Part shown: in pieces, positions 2,724-36,993 of the stretch
Layout of the letters: each line of letters begins with the position of its first letter
Numbering within the stretch: position 1 is the stretch's first letter
Source of the DNA: an uncultured Bacilli bacterium
Lineage (GTDB): Bacteria; Bacillota_I; Bacilli_A; RF39; UBA660
Length of the DNA: 39,177 nucleotides
Assembly (NCBI GenBank): GCA_944332265.1
Contig: CALVJQ010000013.1
Location: 1 to 39,177, forward strand
Direction of reading: 5' to 3'
Notes under the pieces: generated by a model
The model's database searches: none
What the model was told of the DNA's origin: nothing
Seen by the model: only the letters and a program-made list of their open reading frames with translations
Program-made: the position numbers and the translations under genes

Positions 2724-5045
2724 ATGAAAAATAATTTACCTGTAATGCTTCTAAAAAAAATAGTCCTTTTACCTTTTCAGGATGTTAGACTTGATTTAAA
2801 TAATGATATTAGTAATAAAGTAATAGATTTAGCATTGAATAAGCATGGGGGAGAAATTTTGATTGTTTGCCCAATTGATCCTTATGAAGAAGCTCCAGAT
2901 GTATCTGATTTACCAGCAGTAGGAGTAGTAGGGAAAATTAAAAGTAAGTTAGAATTACCTAATGGTAATTTAAGAATTGTAGTTAGTGGATATAAAAGAG
3001 TTAAAATCTTAGAGTATGTTAATGAAATTTCTGATGGTGATATTTTAAAAGCTCATACTATGGAAATTGAGTTGCCAAAATTTGATGAAGTTGAAGAAAC
3101 TACTTTGAGAAGAAAGATTTTAGAATTATTAAATGATTTTATTGAATGTTCTTCCGTTATTAGTAATAGTGTTTTATCTAGTATTAAAGATATAAATGAT
3201 ATTGATAAAGTAACTGATATTATCGTTTCTTTTATGCCATTTACAATAGAAAAGAAGCTTATGTATATGCAAGAAGTTAATCCGTTGCATAGAGCTAATG
3301 CTTTAGTTTATGATTTATCAGTGGAGTTGCAAATAGCACAATTAGATTTAAAATTAGACGATGCTTTAAGAGAAGATTTTGAACAAAATCAAAAAGAATT
3401 TGTTTTAAGAGAAAAATTAGAAGAAATAAAAAAAGAATTAGGGGAAATGGATTTTAAAGATGAGCTGATTGGTGATTATTTAGAAAGAATAAATAATTTA
3501 AAATGTGATGGGCAACTAAAGAATAGATTGGTAAATGAAGTTAAAAAATTAGATTATACTAACGAAGCTAGTCCAGAAGTAAGTACAATTCGTAATTATT
3601 TAGATTTGGTATTGAATTTGCCTTTTGGTATTTATAGTGAAGATGAAACTGATTTAGATGTTATTAAAAAAAGTTTAGATAATACGCATTATGCTTTAGA
3701 TAAAGTAAAAGATCGTATTATTGAGTATATAGCTGTTAAGACGCGTAATAAGAATTTAAGAAGTCCTATTATATGTTTGGTTGGTCCTCCTGGAGTTGGT
3801 AAAACATCTTTAGCGATGGGAATTGCTTCTAGTTTAAAGAAAGAATTTTATAAAATTAGTGTTGGTGGTTTAAATGATAGTGCTGAATTAAATGGACATC
3901 GTCGTACTTATATTGGAGCTAGTCCAGGAAAAATAATTCAAGCGCTAGAAAAATGTGGAACTAGTAATCCTTTATTATTAATTGATGAAATAGATAAGAT
4001 GGTAAAAGATTACAAAGGAGACCCAGCATCGGTTTTATTAGATATTTTAGATCCTGAACAAAATGGAAGGTTTATTGATAATTATGTAGAAGAACCTTTT
4101 GATTTATCTCAAGTTATGTTTATTTTAACTGCTAATTATGAAGAAGATATTCCCGAAGCTTTATATGATCGTTTAGAAATTATTGAGCTTTCTAGTTATA
4201 CAGAATTTGAAAAATTAGATATTGCAAAGGAATATTTAATTCCAATGATATATCAAGAACATTTGGTTTGTAGTAAAGAAATAAAATTTAGTAATGATAT
4301 TATTATGGAAATTATTAATCGTTATACTAAAGAAGCTGGAGTTCGTGATTTACAACGTAATTTAAGTACTATTGTTAGAAAAATAGTTACTAAATCTGTT
4401 AAAGAAGCTAATTCTCCAATAAAAGTAATTGTTAAGAAAAGTGATTTACAAAAATATTTAGGACCATATAAATATGATATTGGGAATGATGCTTTATCGC
4501 AGAATGTTGGGTTAGTTAACGCTTTAGCTTATACACCAATGGGTGGAGTTGTTTTACCGATTGAAGTAACAATGTATGATGGTAAAGGAGAATTTAAAGT
4601 TACAGGAATGCTTGGTCAATCAATGGACGAATCGGTTAGTGTAGCTTTAAGTTATATAAAGAGTAAAAAGGATGAATTTGAAGTTAATGATTATTACTTT
4701 ACTAATAAGGATATTCATATTCATTTTTTAGAAGGAGCAGTAAAAAAAGATGGACCTTCAGCAGGAGTTTCTATTACTACTTCATTATTGAGTTTATTTT
4801 TAAAAAAAGAAGTACCACGAAATATTGCAATGACAGGAGAAATTTCATTACGTGGAGATATTTTAAAAGTTGGTGGTTTGAAAGAAAAAATAATTGGAGC
4901 TTATAATGATGGAATTAAGAAAATCTTTGTTCCATATAGTAATTCTTGTGATTTAGAAGAAATTCCTAAAATAGTTAAAGATGAAATAAAAATAGTCTTA
5001 GTTAAGAATTATAAAGAAATATTTAAAGCAATTTTTAGTAATTAA
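2724..5045 (+). CDS. lon: ATP-dependent Lon protease (LonA type)
   Basis: Cytoplasmic AAA+ serine protease that degrades misfolded and regulatory proteins. The 773-residue product has the full LonA layout. There is an N-terminal LON substrate domain, a coiled helical linker, an AAA+ module with Walker A GPPGVGKTS and Walker B LLLIDEIDK, and a C-terminal S16 peptidase. The peptidase has catalytic Ser in KKDGPSAGVS and catalytic Lys in GGLKEKIIGA. Length is that of LonA (about 770-800); LonB is membrane-anchored and shorter. The ATG at 2724 follows GAGGAGG (2711-2717) and replaces an open TTG/ATG extension at 2700 that overlaps the leader. It has its own promoter and terminator. Confidence 0.98.
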   Translation: MKNNLPVMLLKKIVLLPFQDVRLDLNNDISNKVIDLALNKHGGEILIVCPIDPYEEAPDVSDLPAVGVVGKIKSKLELPNGNLRIVVSGYKRVKILEYVNEISDGDILKAHTMEIELPKFDEVEETTLRRKILELLNDFIECSSVISNSVLSSIKDINDIDKVTDIIVSFMPFTIEKKLMYMQEVNPLHRANALVYDLSVELQIAQLDLKLDDALREDFEQNQKEFVLREKLEEIKKELGEMDFKDELIGDYLERINNLKCDGQLKNRLVNEVKKLDYTNEASPEVSTIRNYLDLVLNLPFGIYSEDETDLDVIKKSLDNTHYALDKVKDRIIEYIAVKTRNKNLRSPIICLVGPPGVGKTSLAMGIASSLKKEFYKISVGGLNDSAELNGHRRTYIGASPGKIIQALEKCGTSNPLLLIDEIDKMVKDYKGDPASVLLDILDPEQNGRFIDNYVEEPFDLSQVMFILTANYEEDIPEALYDRLEIIELSSYTEFEKLDIAKEYLIPMIYQEHLVCSKEIKFSNDIIMEIINRYTKEAGVRDLQRNLSTIVRKIVTKSVKEANSPIKVIVKKSDLQKYLGPYKYDIGNDALSQNVGLVNALAYTPMGGVVLPIEVTMYDGKGEFKVTGMLGQSMDESVSVALSYIKSKKDEFEVNDYYFTNKDIHIHFLEGAVKKDGPSAGVSITTSLLSLFLKKEVPRNIAMTGEISLRGDILKVGGLKEKIIGAYNDGIKKIFVPYSNSCDLEEIPKIVKDEIKIVLVKNYKEIFKAIFSN

Positions 5046-5059
5046 AAATTGTTTTTTTT
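5029..5059 (+). terminator. Terminator overlapping the lon stop codon
   Basis: Stem CAATTTTTA (5029-5037) / TAAAAATTG (5043-5051) with loop GTAAT and eight T residues. The stem contains the last lon codons and the stop at 5043-5045. Confidence 0.8.
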
Positions 5060-5086
5060 CATATTTTTTATTAGGAGGCTATTGTG

Positions 5087-5731
5087 ATGAGACATATTAT
5101 ACCTTTTAGCAAAGAAATTGTATTTAAAACAAATATTGCTACTATTACCAGTATTTCTTTAGAACATGAAGAAAAAATATTTGATGGTGAAGTTAATGGA
5201 GATTTTATTATTTTTGGGGATTATAAAGTACATAGTGATACAACAGAAAAAGAATTATTTAAATATCGTTTACCTTTTACGACTTTAATTCCTGATAATA
5301 TTATAAAAGACTCTGTTAAGATTGAAATTGTTGATTTTAATTATGAAATAATTGATAAGGATGTTTTAAAAGTAGATATTTCTTTTTCCTTAGAAGGAAA
5401 TTTAAAAGAAGAGGTTGAAATGGTTGAAGAAGATAGAAAGTATGAAAAAGAACTTGATCAATTTTTAGATAATATTATAGAAAAAGAAGAAGATATTAAA
5501 GAAGTAAGAGAAGATAAAGAAGAAATAAATGAACCACAAGAAATAGAAGTAAAAAAAGAAGATAAAGATGAATATATTACTTATCATATACATATTGTAA
5601 AGGAAGAGGAAACAATAGAAGTTATTATGAAAACTTATGGAGTAAGTCTTGATTATTTAAAAGAATATAATGATATTTCAAATATTAATGTAGGAGATAA
5701 GATTATTATTCCCCAAGTTAAGGATGAATAG
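5087..5731 (+). CDS. spoVID: SpoVID-like spore coat morphogenesis protein (SPOCS + LysM)
   Basis: In Bacillus, SpoVID sits on the forespore surface and helps the coat encase it, working with SpoIVA and SafA. The 214-residue product has an N-terminal beta-rich domain (about 1-105) with the spacing of SPOCS domains: an ISLEHEEKIFDGEVNGDF region, a FGDY turn, LPFTTLIPD, and IVDFNYEII. A long Glu/Lys-rich linker (about 106-163) follows, then a C-terminal LysM domain (about 164-214: YHIHIVKEEETIEVIMKTYG through VGDKIIIPQ). Bacillus SpoVID is about 575 residues, so the middle region is mostly missing. ATG 5087 has AGGAGG eight bases ahead; GTG 5084 is the alternative. Overlap with a ysxE-like gene matches the Bacillus spoVID-ysxE pair, the strongest support for the name. 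Confidence 0.78.
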   Translation: MRHIIPFSKEIVFKTNIATITSISLEHEEKIFDGEVNGDFIIFGDYKVHSDTTEKELFKYRLPFTTLIPDNIIKDSVKIEIVDFNYEIIDKDVLKVDISFSLEGNLKEEVEMVEEDRKYEKELDQFLDNIIEKEEDIKEVREDKEEINEPQEIEVKKEDKDEYITYHIHIVKEEETIEVIMKTYGVSLDYLKEYNDISNINVGDKIIIPQVKDE

Positions 5732-6596
5732 AAGTTTAGATGTTTTTATTAAATTATATAAACCATATGAAATTAGAAGAATTAATAGTGTTTATGTATT
5801 TAAGACAATGAATGGTAATTATGTATGTAAATGTAATCCTAAGATTGATTATAATAAGTTATATAATTATTTATATAGTAGGGGATTTAATTATTTACCT
5901 ATATTATCATTAGATAGTAGAGATGATATGGCTGTTTTTAATTATGAAGATGATGTTGTAATTGATACTTATCAAAAAGGTGTTGATTTGATTAAACTAG
6001 TTGCTTTATTGCATTTAAAAACTAGTTATTTTAAGAATATAACTAGTGATAAATATAAAGAAGTTTATGATAATATTACTAGTAATTTGAAGTATCTTGA
6101 TGATTTATATAATAAAATGTTTAATACCTTTTTATATGAAGATTACTTTGTACCAAGTCATTATTTATTTTTGCGTAATTTTAGTTTAGTATATAATGCT
6201 ATTCAATATAGTTTGAATGAACTTGATAATTGGTATTCTTTAATTAAAGATAAGAATCGAGAAAGAATAGTTTTAGTACATAATAATTTAAGATTAGATC
6301 ATTTATTAAAAAATAGTAATGAATATTTAATTAGTTGGGATAATTATACTTATGATACTCCAGTATTAGATTTATATCATTTTTATTTAAATGAGTGGAT
6401 GAATGTTGATTTTAAGAATATTTATAATGTTTATAACGATACTTTTAGTTTACTTGAAGAGGAAGATAAGTTATTTAAGATATTAATAAGTATTCCTTAT
6501 AAAATTGATTTAGGAGAAGATGAGTATTTAAATTGTCGTAAAGTAAGAGAAATGATTAATTATTTAAATAATTCTTGGAATTTTATTAGTACTTAG
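5724..6596 (+). CDS. ysxE: YsxE/CotS-like spore coat protein, degenerate kinase fold
   Basis: The 290-residue product resembles the aminoglycoside-phosphotransferase-like family that includes YsxE and CotS, spore coat-associated proteins. The C-terminal lobe shows LVHNNLRLDHLL where active kinases have an H-G-D-x-x-x-x-N loop, then ISWDNYTYDTPVLDLYHFY where the family has a metal-binding D and a conserved D-L. The catalytic Asp position is Asn here, so phosphotransfer is doubtful; Bacillus YsxE, from memory, also departs from the motif. The start ATG overlaps the end of spoVID by 8 bases, with AAGG directly before it, so translation probably depends on coupling. Family assignment rests on these motifs plus synteny. 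Confidence 0.7.
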   Translation: MNRSLDVFIKLYKPYEIRRINSVYVFKTMNGNYVCKCNPKIDYNKLYNYLYSRGFNYLPILSLDSRDDMAVFNYEDDVVIDTYQKGVDLIKLVALLHLKTSYFKNITSDKYKEVYDNITSNLKYLDDLYNKMFNTFLYEDYFVPSHYLFLRNFSLVYNAIQYSLNELDNWYSLIKDKNRERIVLVHNNLRLDHLLKNSNEYLISWDNYTYDTPVLDLYHFYLNEWMNVDFKNIYNVYNDTFSLLEEEDKLFKILISIPYKIDLGEDEYLNCRKVREMINYLNNSWNFIST

Positions 6597-6791
6597 TATG
6601 GCCATAATAATTTAAAAAGACATATGAATAATAAAAAGCATTCAATTAAAAGAATTATAACATTAAAACGAAGTGGTAAAATTAGAGTAATAATAGTTTG
6701 ATAAAAGATTAGAATACTTAAAAAAAGAATTGAAAGAAGTAAAAATAGGGAGTTTTTAGGATACATAGAATCACCTATTATAAAATATGTT
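6597..6791 (+). other. ysxE 3' tail without a convincing gene
   Basis: No recognised gene is present. The ysxE reading frame continues open for 34 codons past its TAG stop to a TGA at 6699-6701. That stretch is strongly basic (for example NNKKHSIKRIITLKRSGKIR) and contains an ATG at 6624 with no clear ribosome-binding site. The terminator for ysxE comes only at 6792, so the stretch is probably transcribed. It could be a decayed C-terminal tail or chance open frame in AT-rich DNA. Confidence 0.3.
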
Positions 6792-6818
6792 AAAGAAACT
6801 TTAAATGTTTCTTTTTTT
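6792..6818 (+). terminator. Terminator of the spoVID-ysxE unit
   Basis: Perfect 8-bp stem AAAGAAAC (6792-6799) / GTTTCTTT (6807-6814), loop TTTAAAT, followed by T residues. Confidence 0.8.
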
Positions 6819-6858
6819 GTGATAATATATTATTAGAATAAAAGATATGGTGATTGAA

Positions 6859-7776
6859 ATGGGTAAGAGATTTTATATTTTATTATTTGTAATTATGAGT
6901 GCTTCAGCTTTATTACTTAGTTTATCTTATGCTAGCGAATCTGGGAGAAATGATGAAGTAGCTTTAGCGGAAATTAATAAAGATGAATATCGTGTTATCT
7001 TTTCTAATAGTAAAAAAGTAGATACAAAAGATAATAATAAAATAGAATTTGGAATAATTAATAAAAGTGATGAAATTAATAATTTTGCTTTGGTACTAAA
7101 TAGTGATGATAAAGTATTAGATGATTTATATTATTCTATTAATAGTGGAAGTAAAGAAACTGTTACTAATGGAATGATTAATTTAGGTGAAGTTCAAGCT
7201 TTTGGAACTGAGGGGGATTTTAATTTTTATAGTATTGAAATTAGTAGTAATAATGATTATGAATTTAATTTAGATGTTTTACCTGTTGATGTTAATTTAC
7301 TTAGTAGTTATATAAAAAGGAGTAAGCAAGTTTATTTAGATAGTGTAGGTAATATTCGTTATTATGGGGAAAATGTTAATAATTATTTAAATTATAATAA
7401 TCATTTATATCGTATTATAGGAATTGTTGATGGTAAAATTAAGTTGTTAGATACTACTGATAAAGGATTAGGTATTTTTAATGTTAGTGATCAATATCCT
7501 TCTTTAGATGATTATTTAAGTAGTTTTACTAATCGTAAATTAGAAGTGAATGAAGTGTTAAATAAACGTAGTTGGATGACTGAAATAAGGGATTATTGGC
7601 TTGTTGATAATAATAGTGATAATGTGTATGGGGCAACTGATACTGATGGAGTTATTTCAGTTATGAAAAATGTTGGTTTATATCGACGTAATGTAGTTAT
7701 ATTAGATGATATTTATAATGTAAGTAATGGTGATGGAACTATTCTTCATCCTTATGAGGTGACTTATGGTAGTTAG
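6859..7776 (+). CDS. Secreted or membrane-anchored protein with NNHLYRI domain
   Basis: The 305-residue product begins with a signal peptide or anchor (RFYILLFVIMSASALLLSLS, about residues 3-22). A beta-rich region of about 100 residues follows, then a domain starting at YLNYNNHLYRIIGIVDG and ending at NGDGTILHPYEV. The same start and end patterns occur in the product of 11028-12020, so the two share a domain common in secreted proteins of low-GC gut Firmicutes. I cannot give its function. The frame is open from ATG 6847, but GGTGAT directly before ATG 6859 decides the start. The gene overlaps the next by 11 bases, and the two probably form one operon ending at the hairpin at 8351. Confidence 0.7.
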   Translation: MGKRFYILLFVIMSASALLLSLSYASESGRNDEVALAEINKDEYRVIFSNSKKVDTKDNNKIEFGIINKSDEINNFALVLNSDDKVLDDLYYSINSGSKETVTNGMINLGEVQAFGTEGDFNFYSIEISSNNDYEFNLDVLPVDVNLLSSYIKRSKQVYLDSVGNIRYYGENVNNYLNYNNHLYRIIGIVDGKIKLLDTTDKGLGIFNVSDQYPSLDDYLSSFTNRKLEVNEVLNKRSWMTEIRDYWLVDNNSDNVYGATDTDGVISVMKNVGLYRRNVVILDDIYNVSNGDGTILHPYEVTYGS

Positions 7777-28539: not shown

Positions 28540-28893
28540 TTAAATATTTTTAGATGCTTCGTTAGCAGCTTCACTATAAGCTCTAATTAAGCCACCAGCT
28601 CCTAGTTTTATTCCTCCAAAATAACGAATAACAGCAATTAAATGATTATTTAATTCTTTTCTTTCTAAGATGTTATAAATAGGAAGACCTGCAGTATTAG
28701 ATGGTTCTTTATCATCACTTTTTTTGGCTGTGTTATTTATTTTATAAGCATAGGGAATATGACGAGCTTTTTTATGTTCTTTTTTTAACGATTCAATAAT
28801 ATTTTTAGCTTCTTCTGGTGAGGAGATTTCATAACATAATCCAATAAATTTGGATTTTTTTATTTCAATTATAGATTCTTTTAATAATTTCAT
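28540..28893 (-). CDS. YigZ/IMPACT-family protein, N-terminal domain only
   Basis: A 117-residue protein of the YigZ/IMPACT (UPF0029) family, thought to interact with translation or stress factors. Family blocks are KSKFIGLCYEI near the start, ARHIPYAYKI, DDKEPSNTAGLPIYNILE, and RYFGGIKLGAGGLIRAY. Bacterial members are usually about 200 residues with a C-terminal ferredoxin-like domain. That domain is absent, the protein stopping soon after the last IMPACT block. The frame ends at a clean stop followed by a shared terminator, so it is either a naturally short form or an old truncation. GAGGTGA precedes the ATG. Confidence 0.88.
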   Translation of the reverse strand: MKLLKESIIEIKKSKFIGLCYEISSPEEAKNIIESLKKEHKKARHIPYAYKINNTAKKSDDKEPSNTAGLPIYNILERKELNNHLIAVIRYFGGIKLGAGGLIRAYSEAANEASKNI

Positions 28894-29625: not shown

Positions 29626-30099
29626 ATGTATAATATTCTATTTGTATGTTATGGAAATATATGTAGAAGTCCTATGGCAGAGATGATTTTTAAAGATATT
29701 ATTTATAAAAATAATAAAAGATATATGCTTAGTTGTGTATCAAGAGCCACTAGTATGGAAGAAATAGGTAATGATATATATCCACAAGCCAAGGATAAGT
29801 TAAAAGAAAAAGGTATCACTTGTGAAAATCATCGTGCAACTTTATTGAAAAAAGAAGATTATAAATTATATGATTTAATAATAGTTATGGAAAATAGAAA
29901 TAAAGAAGATGTTTTAAGAATTGTTGGGGATGATATTAATAATAAAGTTCATTTATTATTAGAATATACTGATAATTTAAGAGAAATAGATGATCCTTGG
30001 TATACGGGTGATTTTGATAAAGCATTTGATTTAATATATGAAGGTTGTGTAGGCTTATATAATTATTTAGTTAATAAGGGGGATTATGATGAAATTTAA
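29626..30099 (+). CDS. Low-molecular-weight protein tyrosine phosphatase
   Basis: A 157-residue LMW phosphatase. The phosphate-binding loop CYGNICRSPMAE starts at residue 8 (CX5RS: nucleophile Cys and binding Arg), and the general acid Asp is in DDPWYTGDF (about 125-133). In Bacillus the residue before the second Cys of this loop separates YwlE (Thr, phosphoarginine) from YfkJ (Ile, phosphotyrosine). Ile here favours phosphotyrosine, an inference from that single position. It overlaps uvrC by 11 bases and leads an operon that runs through the rnfD-like gene. Confidence 0.93.
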   Translation: MYNILFVCYGNICRSPMAEMIFKDIIYKNNKRYMLSCVSRATSMEEIGNDIYPQAKDKLKEKGITCENHRATLLKKEDYKLYDLIIVMENRNKEDVLRIVGDDINNKVHLLLEYTDNLREIDDPWYTGDFDKAFDLIYEGCVGLYNYLVNKGDYDEI

Positions 30100-31861
30100 A
30101 GATAAGTTATCTTTAGTTCCTCATAAACCTGGTTCTTATCAAATGAAAGATAAGAATGGAACAATAATATATGTAGGAAAAGCTAAAGATTTAAATAAAA
30201 GATTATCTTCATATTTTAATCGTGTACATACGGGAAAAACGGCTAAGATGGTAAGTTTAATTGATGATTTTCAATATATTGTTGCTTCATCAGAGTTAGA
30301 AGCCTTTATTATTGAAATTAATTTAATTAAAGAGTTTAATCCTAAATACAATATAATGCTTACAGATGATAAAAGTTATCCTTATATTGAATATATTAAA
30401 GAACCTTATCCACGATTAAAAGTTTCGAGATATTTAAATATTAGAAAGAAAGATGGGAAGAAGTTATTTGGACCATATCCAAATGCCTTTGCTGCTCGAA
30501 AAATAGTTAATTTGTTGAATCGTTTATATCCGTTAAAGAAATGTGAAGGTAAACCAAAAGAGGTTTGTTTATATTATCATATAGGAGAATGTTTAGGATA
30601 TTGTAGTAAAAAGATTGATCAAGAGAAAATTAAAGATATGGAAAATGAAATTTTATCTTTTTTAAGAGGAAATGATGAAATATTAAGAAATAAGATAATG
30701 GATAAAATTAAGAAATATAGTGAAAGTCTTAATTATGAAATGGCTCTTGATTTAAAAAAAGAATTAGAATACATTGATGTCGTTTTAGCAAAACAAAAAG
30801 TTGAATTACATGATTTTATTAATCGTGATGTTATTTCCTATTATGTAAATAATGGGTATATATCAATTGAAATATTGTTTATACGTAATGGTAAATTGTT
30901 AAATCATAAGAATGTTATTTATCCATTACATTTAGATATTTTAGATGAAGTAGAAAATTTTATTATTCAATTTTATTCACGAAATGAAGTACCAAAAGAA
31001 ATACTTGTCCCTGAACAAATAAGTATTAATAATATTAGTAATTTTATTCAAAGTAATATACTTTGTCCACAAAAAGGAATAAAAAAAGATTTACTTAAAA
31101 TGGCTTATGATAATGCTAAGTTAAATTTGAATAATAAATTTGAAGAAATAATAAAAAACGAAGAGCGTACTAGTAAAGCTAACGAAGAATTAGCTAAATT
31201 ATTAAATATGGATTCTATATATCGAATAGATGTTTTTGATAATTCAAATTTATTTGGGAGTTTTGCTGTATCTGGAATGGTTGTTTTTATTGATGGTAAA
31301 CCAGCTAAAAATGAGTATCGAAAGTATAAAGTTTCATTAGATGTTAATGATGATTATAATACGATGAAAGAGATATTATATCGTCGTTATCAAAGAGCAT
31401 TAGTTGAAAGAAGTATGTTACCAGATTTAATTATTGTTGATGGGGGAGAGAATCAAATAAGAGCTGCACTTGATATTATGGATTTATTAAATTTGCAAAT
31501 TAAAGTTGTAGGACTTAAAAAAAATGATAAACATAGAACTAATGACTTGATTTCTTCTGATTTAAGTGTTATTAATATAGATAGAATGAGTAATGTATTT
31601 CATTATCTAACAAGGATGCAAGATGAGGTACATAGATTCACAATTAATTATCATAGAACACTTAGAAGTAAAGGAAGTATTAGTAGTGTTTTAGATGATA
31701 TTGAAGGTATAGGTCCAGCTAGAAAGAAACAATTAATAAAGAAATTTGGTAGTATAGCGAAAATTAAAGATGCGCCATTAGAAGAATTAGAAGAAATACT
31801 ACCACGTAATGTGGCAGAAGAATTAAAAAAATACTTAGAGAGTAAATATGAAAAAGAATAG
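30089..31861 (+). CDS. uvrC: UvrABC system nuclease subunit UvrC
   Basis: Makes the two incisions in nucleotide excision repair. The 590-residue product has the N-terminal GIY-YIG nuclease (PGSYQMKDKNGTIIYVGKAK), a Cys-rich pair (KKCEGKPKEVCLYYHIGECLG, cited in part as CLYYHIGECLGYC) and a UVR domain (about 190-235). An RNase H-like nuclease follows (DVFDNSNLFG and IIVDGGENQIRAA with catalytic Asp residues), then C-terminal helix-hairpin-helix motifs (DDIEGIGPARKKQLIKKFGS). ATG 30089 is best spaced from AAGGGGG; ATG 30086 is the alternative. It begins inside the phosphatase gene. In Bacillus it follows trxA directly. Confidence 0.98.
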   Translation: MKFKDKLSLVPHKPGSYQMKDKNGTIIYVGKAKDLNKRLSSYFNRVHTGKTAKMVSLIDDFQYIVASSELEAFIIEINLIKEFNPKYNIMLTDDKSYPYIEYIKEPYPRLKVSRYLNIRKKDGKKLFGPYPNAFAARKIVNLLNRLYPLKKCEGKPKEVCLYYHIGECLGYCSKKIDQEKIKDMENEILSFLRGNDEILRNKIMDKIKKYSESLNYEMALDLKKELEYIDVVLAKQKVELHDFINRDVISYYVNNGYISIEILFIRNGKLLNHKNVIYPLHLDILDEVENFIIQFYSRNEVPKEILVPEQISINNISNFIQSNILCPQKGIKKDLLKMAYDNAKLNLNNKFEEIIKNEERTSKANEELAKLLNMDSIYRIDVFDNSNLFGSFAVSGMVVFIDGKPAKNEYRKYKVSLDVNDDYNTMKEILYRRYQRALVERSMLPDLIIVDGGENQIRAALDIMDLLNLQIKVVGLKKNDKHRTNDLISSDLSVINIDRMSNVFHYLTRMQDEVHRFTINYHRTLRSKGSISSVLDDIEGIGPARKKQLIKKFGSIAKIKDAPLEELEEILPRNVAEELKKYLESKYEKE

Positions 31862-31877: not shown

Positions 31878-33002
31878 TTGAAACTAACTTATAAGTTTAA
31901 TAATGATGAAAAAAGATTGGATATTGAAAGACTTGATTATTTGTCTCCTCTTGATACGGAAATATATGTTCGTGAGGGAGATACTATATATGTAAAAGAT
32001 GGGGATTATTTATATATTAATCAACTTATTAAAGAATCTACTAGTGGAATAAAGACTTATGCGACGATATCTGGGACTGTAGAGTTAAAAGATGGAATTA
32101 TTAAAGTAATTAATGATAAGTCTGATTCTTCTTTTGTTAGTGAAGAAGCAGTTAGTAAGATAGATGAAGTTAAGAAAGAAGAAATTATTAAAAGATGTGA
32201 ATCTTTGGGAATTGATTATGAGAATAAACTTATTGTAAACAAATTAAAAGGTAATAGTCGTTTATTGATTGTCAATGCTATGGATGTTGAGCCTTATCAA
32301 TTTAATAATAATTATTTGTTTCAGGATAATGTGTCTATTTTATTGGATACTATTAGTTTAATATCTAAGAGATTTAATATAGATGCTTATTTATTACTTA
32401 ATAAATATGATGATAATAACGTTAATGCTGTTAAGAAAGTTATTAGAAATTATTCTGATATTAATTTAAAAGTTATAGAAGATGTTTTCCCTTTTAATAC
32501 TAATCAATTAGTAGTTAAGAAGTTTTTTAAGGAATATAAGTATGATGATATATTATTTTTAGATACTTTTGCTTTATATAAAATATTTTATGCAATAAAA
32601 AATGGTTTACCTGTATCAGAAAGATATATTACTGTTAATTTGGGAGATCCTAATAAAGCCTATGTTATTAAGACTAAGTATGGTGCTAATGTCGGAGAAA
32701 TGATTAAGGAAACTATTAAGGTAGATTTTATTGATAAAGATATTTATTTAAATAATTTTATGCGTAAAGTAAAATGTGATAATTTAGATTCACTTATTGT
32801 AACAGATAATATTAAATCAGTCTTTATCTTTCCTAAGGAAGATATTCTTCCATCTAAGTGTATTAAATGTGGTAAATGTGTAGATATATGTCCAGTAGGG
32901 ATTAATCCTTTGGCTAAGAAACTTGATTCAGCTTGTATAAGATGTGGATTATGTAATTATGTCTGTCCAGCTAATATTAATTTAATTAGTAAGGAGAAAT
33001 AG
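31878..33002 (+). CDS. Divergent RnfC-like iron-sulfur protein, TTG start
   Basis: RnfC is the peripheral NADH- or electron-input subunit of the ion-pumping Rnf complex. The 374-residue product keeps the RnfC order: an N-terminal sandwich domain (about 1-85), LLIVNAMDVEPYQFNNNYLF (family form: IVNGAECEPY), an SLBB-like part, and two C-terminal 4Fe-4S motifs, CIKCGKCVDICPVGINP and CIRCGLCNYVCPANI. The GGAGFP flavin-binding loop expected before the VEPY segment is missing, and the protein is shorter than usual, so NADH/FMN binding is doubtful. The only start is TTG 31878, 16 bases after uvrC. It is followed by an rnfD-like gene after one base; rnfA, B, E and G are not in the window. Confidence 0.8.
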   Translation: MKLTYKFNNDEKRLDIERLDYLSPLDTEIYVREGDTIYVKDGDYLYINQLIKESTSGIKTYATISGTVELKDGIIKVINDKSDSSFVSEEAVSKIDEVKKEEIIKRCESLGIDYENKLIVNKLKGNSRLLIVNAMDVEPYQFNNNYLFQDNVSILLDTISLISKRFNIDAYLLLNKYDDNNVNAVKKVIRNYSDINLKVIEDVFPFNTNQLVVKKFFKEYKYDDILFLDTFALYKIFYAIKNGLPVSERYITVNLGDPNKAYVIKTKYGANVGEMIKETIKVDFIDKDIYLNNFMRKVKCDNLDSLIVTDNIKSVFIFPKEDILPSKCIKCGKCVDICPVGINPLAKKLDSACIRCGLCNYVCPANINLISKEK

Positions 33003-33003
33003 A

Positions 33004-33918
33004 ATGGAAAAGGGTTTTTTTAAGAAAAATAAGATATTAGGAATTAATTTATTATATATATTAAGTGTTCTTCCTTTAATTATTTTTGGCTTTTATAAAA
33101 ATGGAATTGTTGTATATCAACATGATTTTATATCTTTGTTGTTGGCTTTACAATATTTAATTATTCCGATAGTAATTATTATTTTAAGTTATGTGTTTGA
33201 AACTTATTATTATATGGGAACTAAGAAAGAGGAAGATACTAATAGTGTAGTTAATTCAATTGTTCCTTATGTAAATGTTTTATGCTATTTAGTTTGTGCA
33301 CCAAATGATTATTTATGGTTAACTATTCCTTTAATTATTGTTTTAGATGTCTTACTAAAGTTTATCGATAGTAAATTGGCAATTAATCAAATTGCATTAT
33401 TTAAAGGAATATTATTTGGAGTTATGACTTTAATGAATAATTTAAATTATGCTAATTTATATGAAGCTAGTTTAAGTAGTCAAGTAACTGATCCAGCTAT
33501 GTTATTTATTGGGAATGGTATAGGAGCTATTGGTGTAACTAGTTCTTTATGTGCTCTTATTGGTTATATTATTTTATTATTTAATTCTTATTATAAAAAG
33601 GATATTCCAATTGTTGCTTTTATAGGTTATGCAATAGTTAGTATTATAATGTATTTTGTTGGAGGATTAAGTTTTAATGATATTTTAGTAAATACTTTTA
33701 ATAGTGGTTTATTATTTGCTTTAATATATGTTGCTTCTTTATCGACAGCTACACCAGTAATACGTAGTGGACGAATTATTTATGCTTTATTAGTTGGTGT
33801 ATTATGTGCGATTTCAGTTAACATTTTAAATATGGATATTGGTGTATATATAGTTATACTTGTTTTAGGATTATTATCACCTATATTTGATAAGTTTAAA
33901 TTGTCTTTAGGAGAATAA
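33004..33918 (+). CDS. RnfD/NqrB-like integral membrane protein
   Basis: A 304-residue protein with about nine or ten membrane helices. The stretch [20 protein letters not shown] resembles the G-x-IGETSALA-x-LIG segment of RnfD. The end [19 protein letters not shown] then [20 protein letters not shown] matches the R-x-G-R-I-x-(F/Y)-(G/A) and final ILL-x-N-x-x-x-P-L-(I/F)-D region of RnfD/NqrB. I could not place the covalent-flavin threonine with confidence. It starts one base after the rnfC-like stop, with GGAG upstream, so the two are coupled. Together they look like a reduced two-subunit redox module. Confidence 0.75.
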
Positions 33919-33937
33919 CAATTGTTATTCTTTTTTT
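33912..33937 (+). terminator. Terminator of the uvrC-rnf operon
   Basis: Perfect 20-base palindrome AGAATAACAA / TTGTTATTCT (33912-33931), containing the stop codon, then a T tract. Confidence 0.85.
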
Positions 33938-33938
33938 A

Positions 33939-33968
33939 TTGGACTTTTTAGCTATTATTAATTATAAT
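33939..33968 (+). promoter_or_regulatory. Sigma-A promoter of queA
   Basis: TTGGAC (33939-33944), 18-base spacer, TATAAT (33963-33968), 24 bases before the queA ATG. Confidence 0.6.
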
Positions 33969-33992: not shown

Positions 33993-35039
33993 ATGGATAT
34001 AGAATTATTTGATTATGAATTACCTAAAGAGTTAATTGCTCAAACACCGCTAAAGGATCGTAGTTCTTCTAGATTATTAGTTTTAGATAAGTATAGTGGT
34101 GAAATTGTTCATGAACATTTTACGTCTATTATAGATTATTTGCATAAAGGAGATGTCTTAGTTTTAAATGATACTAAGGTTATTCCAGCTAGATTAATTG
34201 GGGTTAAAGAAGAAACAGGTGCTGTTATTGAGTTATTGTTACTTAAAGATTTGGGTAATGATGTATGGGAGTGTTTATCTAAACCAGCTAAAAGATTAAA
34301 AATTGGGACTATTGTTACTTTTGGAAATGGCGAGTTAAAAGGGAAAGTTGTTTCTAAGTATGATGAGGGATTAACTCATGTTAAATTGTTATATAATGGT
34401 ATTTTAATGGAAATATTAGATAGATTAGGAACGATGCCTTTACCTCCTTATATCCATGAAAAGTTAGAAGATCAATCAAGGTATCAAACAGTTTATGCGA
34501 AAAATATAGGAAGTGCAGCTGCACCAACTGCAGGTTTACATTTTACTAAAGAATTATTAAAGAAAATTGAAGATAAAGGAATTATTATTACTTATGTTAC
34601 TTTGCATGTTGGTTTAGGTACTTTTAGACCTGTAGAGGTTAATAATATATTGGATCATCATATGCATAGTGAATTTTATGTTATGAATGATGATACTGCT
34701 AATATTTTGAATAAAGCTAAAGAAGAAGGACGTCGTATTGTAGCAGTTGGAACAACTAGTACTAGAACTTTAGAAGCAGTTGCTTCTACTAATAATGGAA
34801 AGTTTATAGCTACAAGTGGTAATACAGAGATATTTATTTATCCAGGATATGAATTTAAAGCGATAGATTGTTTAATTACTAATTTTCATTTACCAAAGAG
34901 TACTTTAGTTATGTTAGTTTCTGCTTTAGCTGGAAGAGAACATATTTTAGCTTCTTATAAAGAAGCTGTTAGAGAAAAATATCGATTCTTTTCTTTTGGT
35001 GATGCGATGTTTATTACAAATGATCTTAATAAAGACTAA
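33993..35039 (+). CDS. queA: S-adenosylmethionine:tRNA ribosyltransferase-isomerase
   Basis: Adds the cyclopentene precursor from S-adenosylmethionine to 7-aminomethyl-deazaguanine in tRNA, the second-last step to queuosine. The 348-residue product starts [17 protein letters not shown] and carries [12 protein letters not shown], the [13 protein letters not shown] block, THVKLLYNG, and the C-terminal [17 protein letters not shown]. Normal length for the family. The frame is open from 33939, which would cover the promoter; GGAGATGAT just before ATG 33993 decides the start. tgt, the first tRNA step of this pathway, lies 3 kb downstream, with a cell-wall gene between them. Confidence 0.97.
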
Positions 35040-35109: not shown

Positions 35110-36993
35110 ATGGAAACAAGAATTAGGAAGATATTTAGTCATACTTTAGCTAAAGTTTGTCGTAAAAGTAAGAAAATAACTGCTTTTATTTTAACTTTCT
35201 TTATTGGTACAGGTGTTGCAAGGGCAACTGGGGCTTATTTAGAACGTAGTGATCATTTAGTTACTTATGGAGTTAGTTCTACTTTGGAAAATGAAGTTGG
35301 TTATGATGATATTAGTGTTATTTATAATAATAAAGTTTATTCTAATGATTTTGTTGTTTTACATATTAGTAATAAAGATTTTCAAGATATATCGCTTTTA
35401 CGTGCTAAGTTAAAGAAATGTAATGATGCTAGTATTTCTGTAAGTTTAGTTTTGGATACTAATGCTAGTACTTTAAGTGATATATATAAAGATGTAGATT
35501 TTTTACAATCAGTAATTAAAGAATATAAAATAGATTTACCTATATATTGTAATATTAATAATATAATGACTAATGATAAACTTAATAATGCCCAAAAGGG
35601 AGCGTTAGTTCAAGCTTTTATTGATAAAGCATCACGTAGTAAGATGTTTTTAGGTTTATATGGTAATGATTCTATTTTAAATGATTTTAATAATTATATT
35701 TTTGATATTACTTCTTATGATTGTTTTTTAGTTATGGATAGTGGTGAGCGTAAGTATAATGGAACTACAACTATTATGCAAGATTTATCTGGTAATATTA
35801 CAGCTTCTAGTGATTTATCTTTAGTAATTAATAATAGTGATTTAAATAATGCTTCTAAATTAGTTTATAGTTCTTTATATAAAGTTTGTAGTGGAGATAC
35901 TTATGCTTCATTAGCTTTAAAATATGGTTTATCTGTTGAAGATTTAAAGAATTATAATTCTAATTTGGGTAAAGAATTAGAAGTAGGAGATATTATTAAG
36001 ATTCCAAATATGTATGTTACTTATGATACATTAAAAGATGAAGTTCAGTATAATTATGCTATTGCTAGAGGTATAGATATTTCTGATTATCAAGTTAATT
36101 TAGATTGGAATAGAATAAAAGAAACTTCAGAATATGTAATTGTTGAAGTGGCTAGAGACCCTGTTAATTATCTTGATAATGAAGGAGAATATATTGATGA
36201 AGCTCCTAATATGATAAAAAATACTTTAAATAATAATATTGACTTAGGTTTGTATTTTTGTGTATCTAAAGATATGAATATGGAAGTATTTAGAAATCGA
36301 TTAACTAATTATTTGAATAAATTGATGAATGATTTAAAAGGAATGAATATAGATTATAGTAAGATACCTATGTTTTTAGATTTTGAAATTTATTATAGTT
36401 ATAATGATTATTATGGTTTATTACAAATATTTGAAGAAGTAGGTAAGGAGTATGGTTTTACTAAATTTGGAATATATGGTAATCAATCTACTTTGCGTAG
36501 TATAAGTAATAATATGGAAGAGAAACACGGAATATTATTAAAAGATGCTGGTTATTTAATTTGGGAAGCTGGAGGACCTCAGTATTCAGCAGATGAACAT
36601 AATGACCCGGGAATTAAACTTGATGAATTACAAGAAGTAGAAACTAAGAAAGATGAGGAAGTAGGTTATATTCCTGATTTAATTCAAGTTACTAATGTAT
36701 GTACTGATACTGGGGCTAGTAATCATGCAAATCATTGCGATGTAAGTTATTTATATACTAAAGATATATTTGGAAATGAATTACCTATGCAAGAGGATTT
36801 ATTAGATGTATATGAAATTAATTTAAATAATTATCCTAATATTTCTTTTTATGATATTGGAACTTTTTTAGATATGTTATCAGAGAAAATCTTCTTAGCT
36901 ACTGGATCTTTAGTTACTTTATGCATTTTAGCTATTGGATCTTATAGCATGGTAGTTGGTGTTTATCGTAAACAGAAAGTAAAGAAAAAATAA
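35110..36993 (+). CDS. Membrane-anchored GH25-like/LysM/GH25 cell-wall protein
   Basis: A 627-residue exported protein. After a membrane segment (KITAFILTFFIGTGVARATG, about 22-41) come three parts. The first is a GH25-like domain (about 60-235) whose acidic strand reads LPIYCNINNI instead of the active P-x-x-L-D-x-E form. The second is a LysM peptidoglycan-binding domain (about 255-299, CSGDTYASLALKYGLS). The third is a second GH25 domain (about 315-565) that keeps GIDISDYQ, the catalytic strand PMFLDFEIY, and FGIYGNQS. A C-terminal helix (ATGSLVTLCILAIGSYSMVV) precedes a basic tail, so both ends are membrane-anchored. Likely a muramidase acting on peptidoglycan, with the first copy probably inactive. 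AGGGGGG precedes the ATG. Confidence 0.85.
   Translation: METRIRKIFSHTLAKVCRKSKKITAFILTFFIGTGVARATGAYLERSDHLVTYGVSSTLENEVGYDDISVIYNNKVYSNDFVVLHISNKDFQDISLLRAKLKKCNDASISVSLVLDTNASTLSDIYKDVDFLQSVIKEYKIDLPIYCNINNIMTNDKLNNAQKGALVQAFIDKASRSKMFLGLYGNDSILNDFNNYIFDITSYDCFLVMDSGERKYNGTTTIMQDLSGNITASSDLSLVINNSDLNNASKLVYSSLYKVCSGDTYASLALKYGLSVEDLKNYNSNLGKELEVGDIIKIPNMYVTYDTLKDEVQYNYAIARGIDISDYQVNLDWNRIKETSEYVIVEVARDPVNYLDNEGEYIDEAPNMIKNTLNNNIDLGLYFCVSKDMNMEVFRNRLTNYLNKLMNDLKGMNIDYSKIPMFLDFEIYYSYNDYYGLLQIFEEVGKEYGFTKFGIYGNQSTLRSISNNMEEKHGILLKDAGYLIWEAGGPQYSADEHNDPGIKLDELQEVETKKDEEVGYIPDLIQVTNVCTDTGASNHANHCDVSYLYTKDIFGNELPMQEDLLDVYEINLNNYPNISFYDIGTFLDMLSEKIFLATGSLVTLCILAIGSYSMVVGVYRKQKVKKK

Follow-up and report, generated by a model that had tools for sequence, protein, structure and literature searches.

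Can two subunits of the Rnf complex be kept and used by a cell that has none of the others? The complex is usually regarded as a pump that is either complete or absent, a view against which a separable pair of RnfC and RnfD goes. A candidate for such a pair lies in the 39,177-nucleotide stretch of DNA analysed here (the window), part of a genome of 1.42 Mb in 48 contigs that is 90.6% complete and belongs to an uncultured member of the Bacilli, similar in size and context to RF39-type gut lineages. The electron route of Rnf leads from an FMN on RnfD to a riboflavin within RnfD, and then through two clusters of RnfC to the FMN and NAD on RnfC; RnfD holds RnfC with its N- and C-terminal arms (PMC9588780, PMC11889175).

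The gene pair and its cofactor sites

Both genes are found on the forward strand, in a run that includes a low-molecular-weight phosphatase gene (29626-30099; Pfam LMWPc match) overlapping the start of uvrC (30086-31861), the latter an ORF call named from its sequence and synteny rather than from a family scan. The RnfC-like gene (C; 31878-33002, 374 aa) begins 16 nt after the end of uvrC with a TTG codon, preceded by a weak Shine-Dalgarno sequence, and is followed by the gene of an RnfD/NqrB-like membrane protein (D; 33004-33918, 304 aa). At the junction between them (32991-33006, forward strand), an AAGGAG Shine-Dalgarno motif within the 3' end of C sits 7 nt 5' of the ATG of D (33004-33006), which is placed one base past the TAG stop codon of C (33000-33002), and translational coupling of both genes is probable from this arrangement. 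An intrinsic-terminator-like hairpin follows (33909-33939, forward strand), with the stem GGAGAATAAC-AATT-GTTATTCTTT and then a T-run; its energy was -9.2 kcal/mol (z -3.43), and none of 200 shuffles was equally stable. A consensus terminator scan did not list this hairpin, probably on account of its AT-rich stem. The next gene 3' of the terminator, queA (33993-35039, forward strand), constitutes a separate unit with a promoter-like match ahead of it (33940-33968). Both reading frames are real, and ORF calls and hairpin energy agree with the first-pass annotation, which had placed the pair in the uvrC operon with a terminator after it. Elsewhere in the window, positions 35110-36993 encode a 627 aa membrane-anchored protein with a LysM domain, a weak glycoside hydrolase family 25 match and a C-terminal membrane segment, and a yigZ/IMPACT-like ORF, which adjoins uvrC in many relatives too, is found on the minus strand (28540-28893).

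C is composed of a barrel-sandwich domain, a Nuo51-like domain and a C-terminal bis-[4Fe-4S] domain. It matched the TIGR01945 rnfC model (E 1.5e-21, 76.5 bits) and the RnfC chain 7zc6_C of the PDB (E 2.8e-15), and an AF2 model built from the reduced-class alignment (pLDDT 90) had RnfC 9eri_C as its best Foldseek match (E 6e-25, TM 0.84). C is therefore an RnfC homologue by domain order, fold and its two 4Fe-4S motifs, yet it does not reach the TIGR01945 cut-off of 245.95. The CxxCxxCxxxCP pattern appears twice, as CIKCGKCVDICP (residues 328-339, 32859-32894, forward strand; Cys 328/331/334/338) and as CIRCGLCNYVCP (residues 353-364, 32934-32969, forward strand; Cys 353/356/359/363). The four Cys of each motif are invariant, all eight being kept in 74/74 aligned C homologues and in the 37/37 that are loop-less. 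At the position of the canonical GxGGxxFPT flavin/NADH loop (32205-32246, forward strand), the alignment showed LGIDYENKLIVNKL instead, and the flavin loop was present in none of the 37 loop-less pairs. In a 32-row subset of the reduced-class alignment, with a mean column identity of 40% for C (35-40% for the pairs), the invariant columns were the eight Cys, flanking Gly/Pro residues and, in the barrel domain, S65, G66 and N79. In addition, the reduced class conserves N292, where the canonical residue is G.

D scored 72 bits against PF03116 (NQR2_RnfD_RnfE), over the gathering cut-off of 27.7, and 47.4 bits against TIGR01946 rnfD, below the cut-off of 207.05. Its AF2 model, also built from the reduced-class alignment (pLDDT 91), showed a ten-helix urea/ammonium-transporter-like fold with RnfD 9eri_D as best PDB match in Foldseek (TM 0.75). 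By score and fold, D is a member of the RnfD/NqrB family, and it ends after this domain, with no further Pfam domain. Motifs, alignment and family matches of both proteins, together with their gene order, bear out the first description of the locus as an RnfC-like protein with both 4Fe-4S motifs intact and no flavin loop, coupled to an RnfD/NqrB-like membrane protein.

The flavin-site residues of D were mapped through alignments onto those named in PMC11889175 and PMC9588780, from which the residue roles were taken, the FMN-bearing Thr being T156 in A. woodii and T153 in C. tetanomorphum. The D of the window shows a gap at the FMN-attachment Thr and a Leu at the riboflavin Asp, and keeps the riboflavin Asn position. 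Among relatives, 18/19 genomes with RnfA/E but 0/37 of the loop-less kind have the FMN-attachment Thr; of the two riboflavin ligands, D249 was found in 19/19 versus 13/37, and N123 in 19/19 versus 32/37. The losses hence go beyond that of the C loop noted at first, with a D devoid of the FMN-attachment Thr and mostly of the riboflavin Asp. Retention of the Asn123 equivalent in most loop-less pairs and of Asp249 in some of them would accord with a D in which riboflavin, bound non-covalently, or a quinone is still at work, the pair being a one-way, NqrB-like conduit that leads from cluster C-2 into the membrane; NqrB uses this site region for its quinone (PMC11889175). However, the window has Leu in place of the Asp, and the Rnf of A. 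woodii lost its activity when one or the other residue was mutated (PMC11889175); we regard such a conduit as very unlikely.

The reduced class also has conserved residues of its own in D, Y197-K198-K199 (33592-33600, forward strand; conserved in 30/37, 34/37 and 30/37, respectively), where canonical RnfD has I-K-W, in a loop predicted from RnfD topology to face the cytoplasm. This loop, predicted to face C, and an electron path across D that is no longer present could suggest a reversion of D to a urea/ammonium-channel-like pore, gated by C with its clusters acting as a sensor of redox or Fe-S status. Urea transporters, Rh and Amt were indeed the next Foldseek matches of D after Rnf/Nqr, but these matches are weak (E 0.01-1, TM ~0.45) and expected of any RnfD, and RnfD itself is dry and not ion-conducting (PMC11889175), so a redox-gated channel or transporter of this kind seems rather unlikely.

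Genome-wide family searches were carried out for the remaining components. The genome of the window encodes a single PF03116 gene, and searches of it gave 0 matches for RnfA/E (PF02508), 0 for RnfB (PF04060), and none for FMN_bind/RnfG (PF04205) or ApbE (PF02424). The absence of RnfA, B, E and G, first remarked at the locus, consequently extends to the whole assembly, and a full rnf operon elsewhere in it, of which the pair might be a decaying copy, was ruled out by these searches. An assembly gap was likewise rejected as the reason for the missing RnfA/E, because about 97 related genomes share the same absence. Participation in flavin transfer, which had been proposed for the pair, found no support, there being no FMN_bind domain, ApbE or covalent-flavin site. 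Genes for PFOR and an [FeFe]-hydrogenase are present, so that reduced ferredoxin is likely available in the host.

Distribution across the order

RnfC-profile, RnfD, RnfA/E, RnfB, ApbE and hydrogenase searches were run on 241 genomes of the same order, 125 of which encode an RnfD-family protein. RnfA/E was detected in 19/241 and RnfB in 18/241, all 18 being carriers of RnfA/E too. Another 11 genomes have a strong RnfD without RnfA/E, about 97 from 31 genera, the window's included, have a weak RnfD with C (two of them added from a C-adjacent D found on fetching the locus sequence), 8 have a C remnant alone, and 106 have neither C nor D. ApbE, which attaches FMN, follows the strong form, with 24/30 strong-RnfD genomes versus 2/97 weak-RnfD ones (Fisher p 3.5e-18, relatedness ignored). 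In the RnfA/E group, D is usually ~470 aa or longer, and a scanned example carries the RnfG FMN_bind domain at its C end. This D-G fusion is retained in the absence of RnfA/E in five genomes; in the two neighbourhoods checked, ftsK and recX come after it rather than rnf genes. Full-length RnfD proteins of ~460-600 aa were seen at loci L063-L086 of the order, with a C-end RnfG-type FMN_bind fusion in the scanned examples.

Wherever the sequence of a relative extends to both sides, C immediately precedes D on one strand, and linkage of the homologues was conserved in every relative inspected. The order uvrC-C-D recurs among them. In other orders of the same class, genomes with a C-profile match mostly encode an RnfC of canonical length, and 74/80 of those tested also have RnfA/E; within this sample, the reduced C-D form is characteristic of the order.

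Two loci deserve separate mention. In L188 (G010; 4569-7568, minus strand), one degenerate RnfA/E homologue of 189 aa comes after C and D; the D of this locus is devoid of the flavinylation Thr, searches for RnfB and ApbE found none, and the locus is possibly an intermediate stage. In G206 (L183), an apparent fusion of D with a giant protein was discarded as an artefact, the added part consisting of a stretch of N.

Selection and stages of loss

In the three closest pairs of genomes, NG86 dN/dS ratios were 0.09-0.25 for C, 0.15-0.33 for D and 0.04-0.13 for uvrC; more distant pairs gave values of up to ~0.5 (C) and ~0.6 (D), which are unreliable, with synonymous sites nearly saturated. C and D are thus maintained by purifying selection and are not decaying. 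The lineage is genome-reducing, and uvrC evolves more slowly than either gene (omega 0.04-0.13 vs 0.16-0.25), which would favour functionless leftovers of an rnf operon lost not long ago. Against this, the pair is intact across the ~97 genomes and 31 genera, with invariant Cys, omega well below 1, pairing kept and class-specific residues; dN/dS and distribution rule out pseudogenes, and decay is extremely improbable. Stripped of flavins and pumping parts yet still maintained by selection, the pair must serve a purpose different from the textbook Rnf one.

An RnfC tree calculated without the flavin-loop columns showed the RnfA/E-bearing genomes scattered, and forcing the RnfA/E carriers to one side of a branch was rejected (AU p=0.0004), from which a repeated loss of A, B and E appears probable, although transfer would also be consistent with the scatter. 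The loop-less RnfC forms fell mostly into one strongly supported clade. Repeated independent loss of the flavin loop, hinted at by a quick tree, was set aside, as a single clade is not rejected (AU p 0.67) and has the higher likelihood.

The eight genomes with C alone (L175-L182; e.g., L175:5002-5847) encode an RnfC remnant of 271-281 aa with no cluster domain, flavin loop or D, directly behind uvrC in 7/8 of them, and a Pfam scan of the remnant at E 0.001 matched no family. Loss of both cluster domain and D in the remnant clade supports the view that these two would form one functional unit. The remnant is nevertheless under strong purifying selection (dN/dS 0.06-0.10 among five of the eight), and hence a protein derived from RnfC can be kept by selection for a task that is not redox. 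Such a role, structural or regulatory as in NqrA, could be extended to the pair itself, with the barrel-sandwich/SLBB domains serving for protein-protein or ligand binding and the clusters being structural; the cofactor-less remnants, the NqrA precedent (PMC11889175) and the invariance of S65, G66 and N79 are in line with it. However, the reduced class keeps 8/8 Cys without exception, together with D, a poorer fit to a purely structural role, and we consider it unlikely for the pair.

A single order offers a series from full C-DG-E-A-B to C-DG, then C-D whose flavin sites are partly kept, C-D free of flavin and C alone. This series shows which Rnf parts are dispensable and which retained, and that the RnfC clusters and RnfD are separable, with their own use.

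Proposed role, known systems and neighbouring genes

The pair cannot be an Rnf-type Na+/H+ pump nor a ferredoxin:NAD+ oxidoreductase, because it has no A/E for ion translocation, no B for ferredoxin input, no G as carrier of FMN and, in C, no NADH/FMN site. As judged from the sequences, both flavin ends of the Rnf route are gone, and the cluster wire and its anchor remain. The reading that we favour, with moderate confidence, is that of a minimal flavin-free Rnf derivative acting as a membrane-anchored bis-[4Fe-4S] electron relay and not as an ion pump. RnfC would have been reduced to a cytoplasmic bis-[4Fe-4S] protein, anchored on the membrane, presumably by direct contact, by an RnfD-type ten-helix protein without covalent FMN. 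With its clusters occupied, the pair would behave as a membrane-tethered, ferredoxin-like relay, and low-potential electrons might be exchanged between soluble ferredoxin, PFOR or hydrogenase and an acceptor in or near the membrane whose gene lies elsewhere. This is supported by the invariant cluster Cys, the C-D linkage, the near absence of ApbE, the loss of flavin sites, the low dN/dS, the folds, the class-specific residues, and the PFOR and [FeFe]-hydrogenase of the host. Several points speak against a relay: no partner or acceptor gene is consistently linked among the neighbours, a wire without a membrane cofactor offers no obvious path across the membrane, and the L175-L182 relatives retain C without any cofactor. 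A broader and more doubtful idea, to which we nonetheless give some room, is that Rnf shed its pump parts to leave, as the flavin-free pair, an Fe-S-gated channel or transporter, or another new membrane redox device, which was then kept throughout the order, with cofactor-less RnfC as the terminal stage.

The surroundings of the pair vary among relatives, with uvrC, an AP endonuclease (nfo-like) or a yqeH-like GTPase on the 5' side and dnaG-rpoD-trmK, queA-tgt or ftsW on the 3' side; these neighbours are housekeeping genes, and no recurrent redox partner gene was found beside the pair in relatives. The first-pass annotation had suggested a reduced electron-transfer pair with ferredoxin- or thioredoxin-type partners. 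Its core stands, with a reduced C-D form without the rest of Rnf, conserved linkage and selection, whereas flavin transfer and the thioredoxin link find no support: trx appears near uvrC in ~10 loci, upstream of it and in a housekeeping context that varies, but many pair-bearing relatives have no trx nearby. Ferredoxin-type partners are plausible, given the PFOR and [FeFe]-hydrogenase of the genome. The [FeFe]-hydrogenase is commoner in genomes with the weak pair than in those with neither gene (40/97 vs 22/106, p 0.002), a weak association in which relatedness was ignored.

Several known systems resemble the pair in part. With the Rnf complex (RnfABCDGE) of C. tetanomorphum and A. woodii it shares homologous RnfC and RnfD, their folds, the two C-terminal 4Fe-4S clusters and the position of C directly before D; it differs in the absence of A, B, E, G and ApbE, of the FMN/NADH loop in C, and, in D, of covalent FMN and usually of a complete riboflavin site. 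The two-subunit NQR/RNF-like systems (Meheust et al. 2021, PMC8238504; PMC10979944) are also two-gene simplifications with an NqrB/RnfD-type subunit without the flavinylation Thr, but they have a flavinylated NqrC/RnfG-like subunit and a PF00175 NAD-binding domain fused to the membrane domain, and are found in flavinylation clusters; here, PF04205 is absent from the genome and PF00175 from D, and the cytoplasmic position is occupied by an Fe-S RnfC. NqrA of Na+-NQR is, like C, an RnfC homologue with cofactor loss anchored to an RnfD homologue (NqrB), but it has no Fe-S clusters and works in a six-subunit pump, whereas the pair kept the clusters and lost the flavins. RnfC has also been recruited outside Rnf as an electron module, as PrdC of proline reductase and as RnfC2 of type III MTHFR; unlike these, C lost the flavin/NADH site and stays paired with RnfD. 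RnfC2 is described as a soluble NADH-binding module (PMC8760232). A search of the open-access literature for incomplete, partial or truncated Rnf or RnfCD returned no flavin-free C-D pair, which is weak evidence of absence. In MAG-based metabolic models, the pair should not be annotated as an Rnf complex, nor should ion pumping be inferred from it.

Other loci showed particular arrangements around the pair. In L112 and L141, the pair and an [FeFe]-hydrogenase are ~5 kb apart, and the interval holds lgt, a Pyr_redox_2 protein and rubrerythrin. In L107, L108, L118 and neighbouring loci, the stretch from D to dnaG repeatedly contains SpaA/thioester-domain surface proteins and a sortase, and is probably an insertion hot spot.
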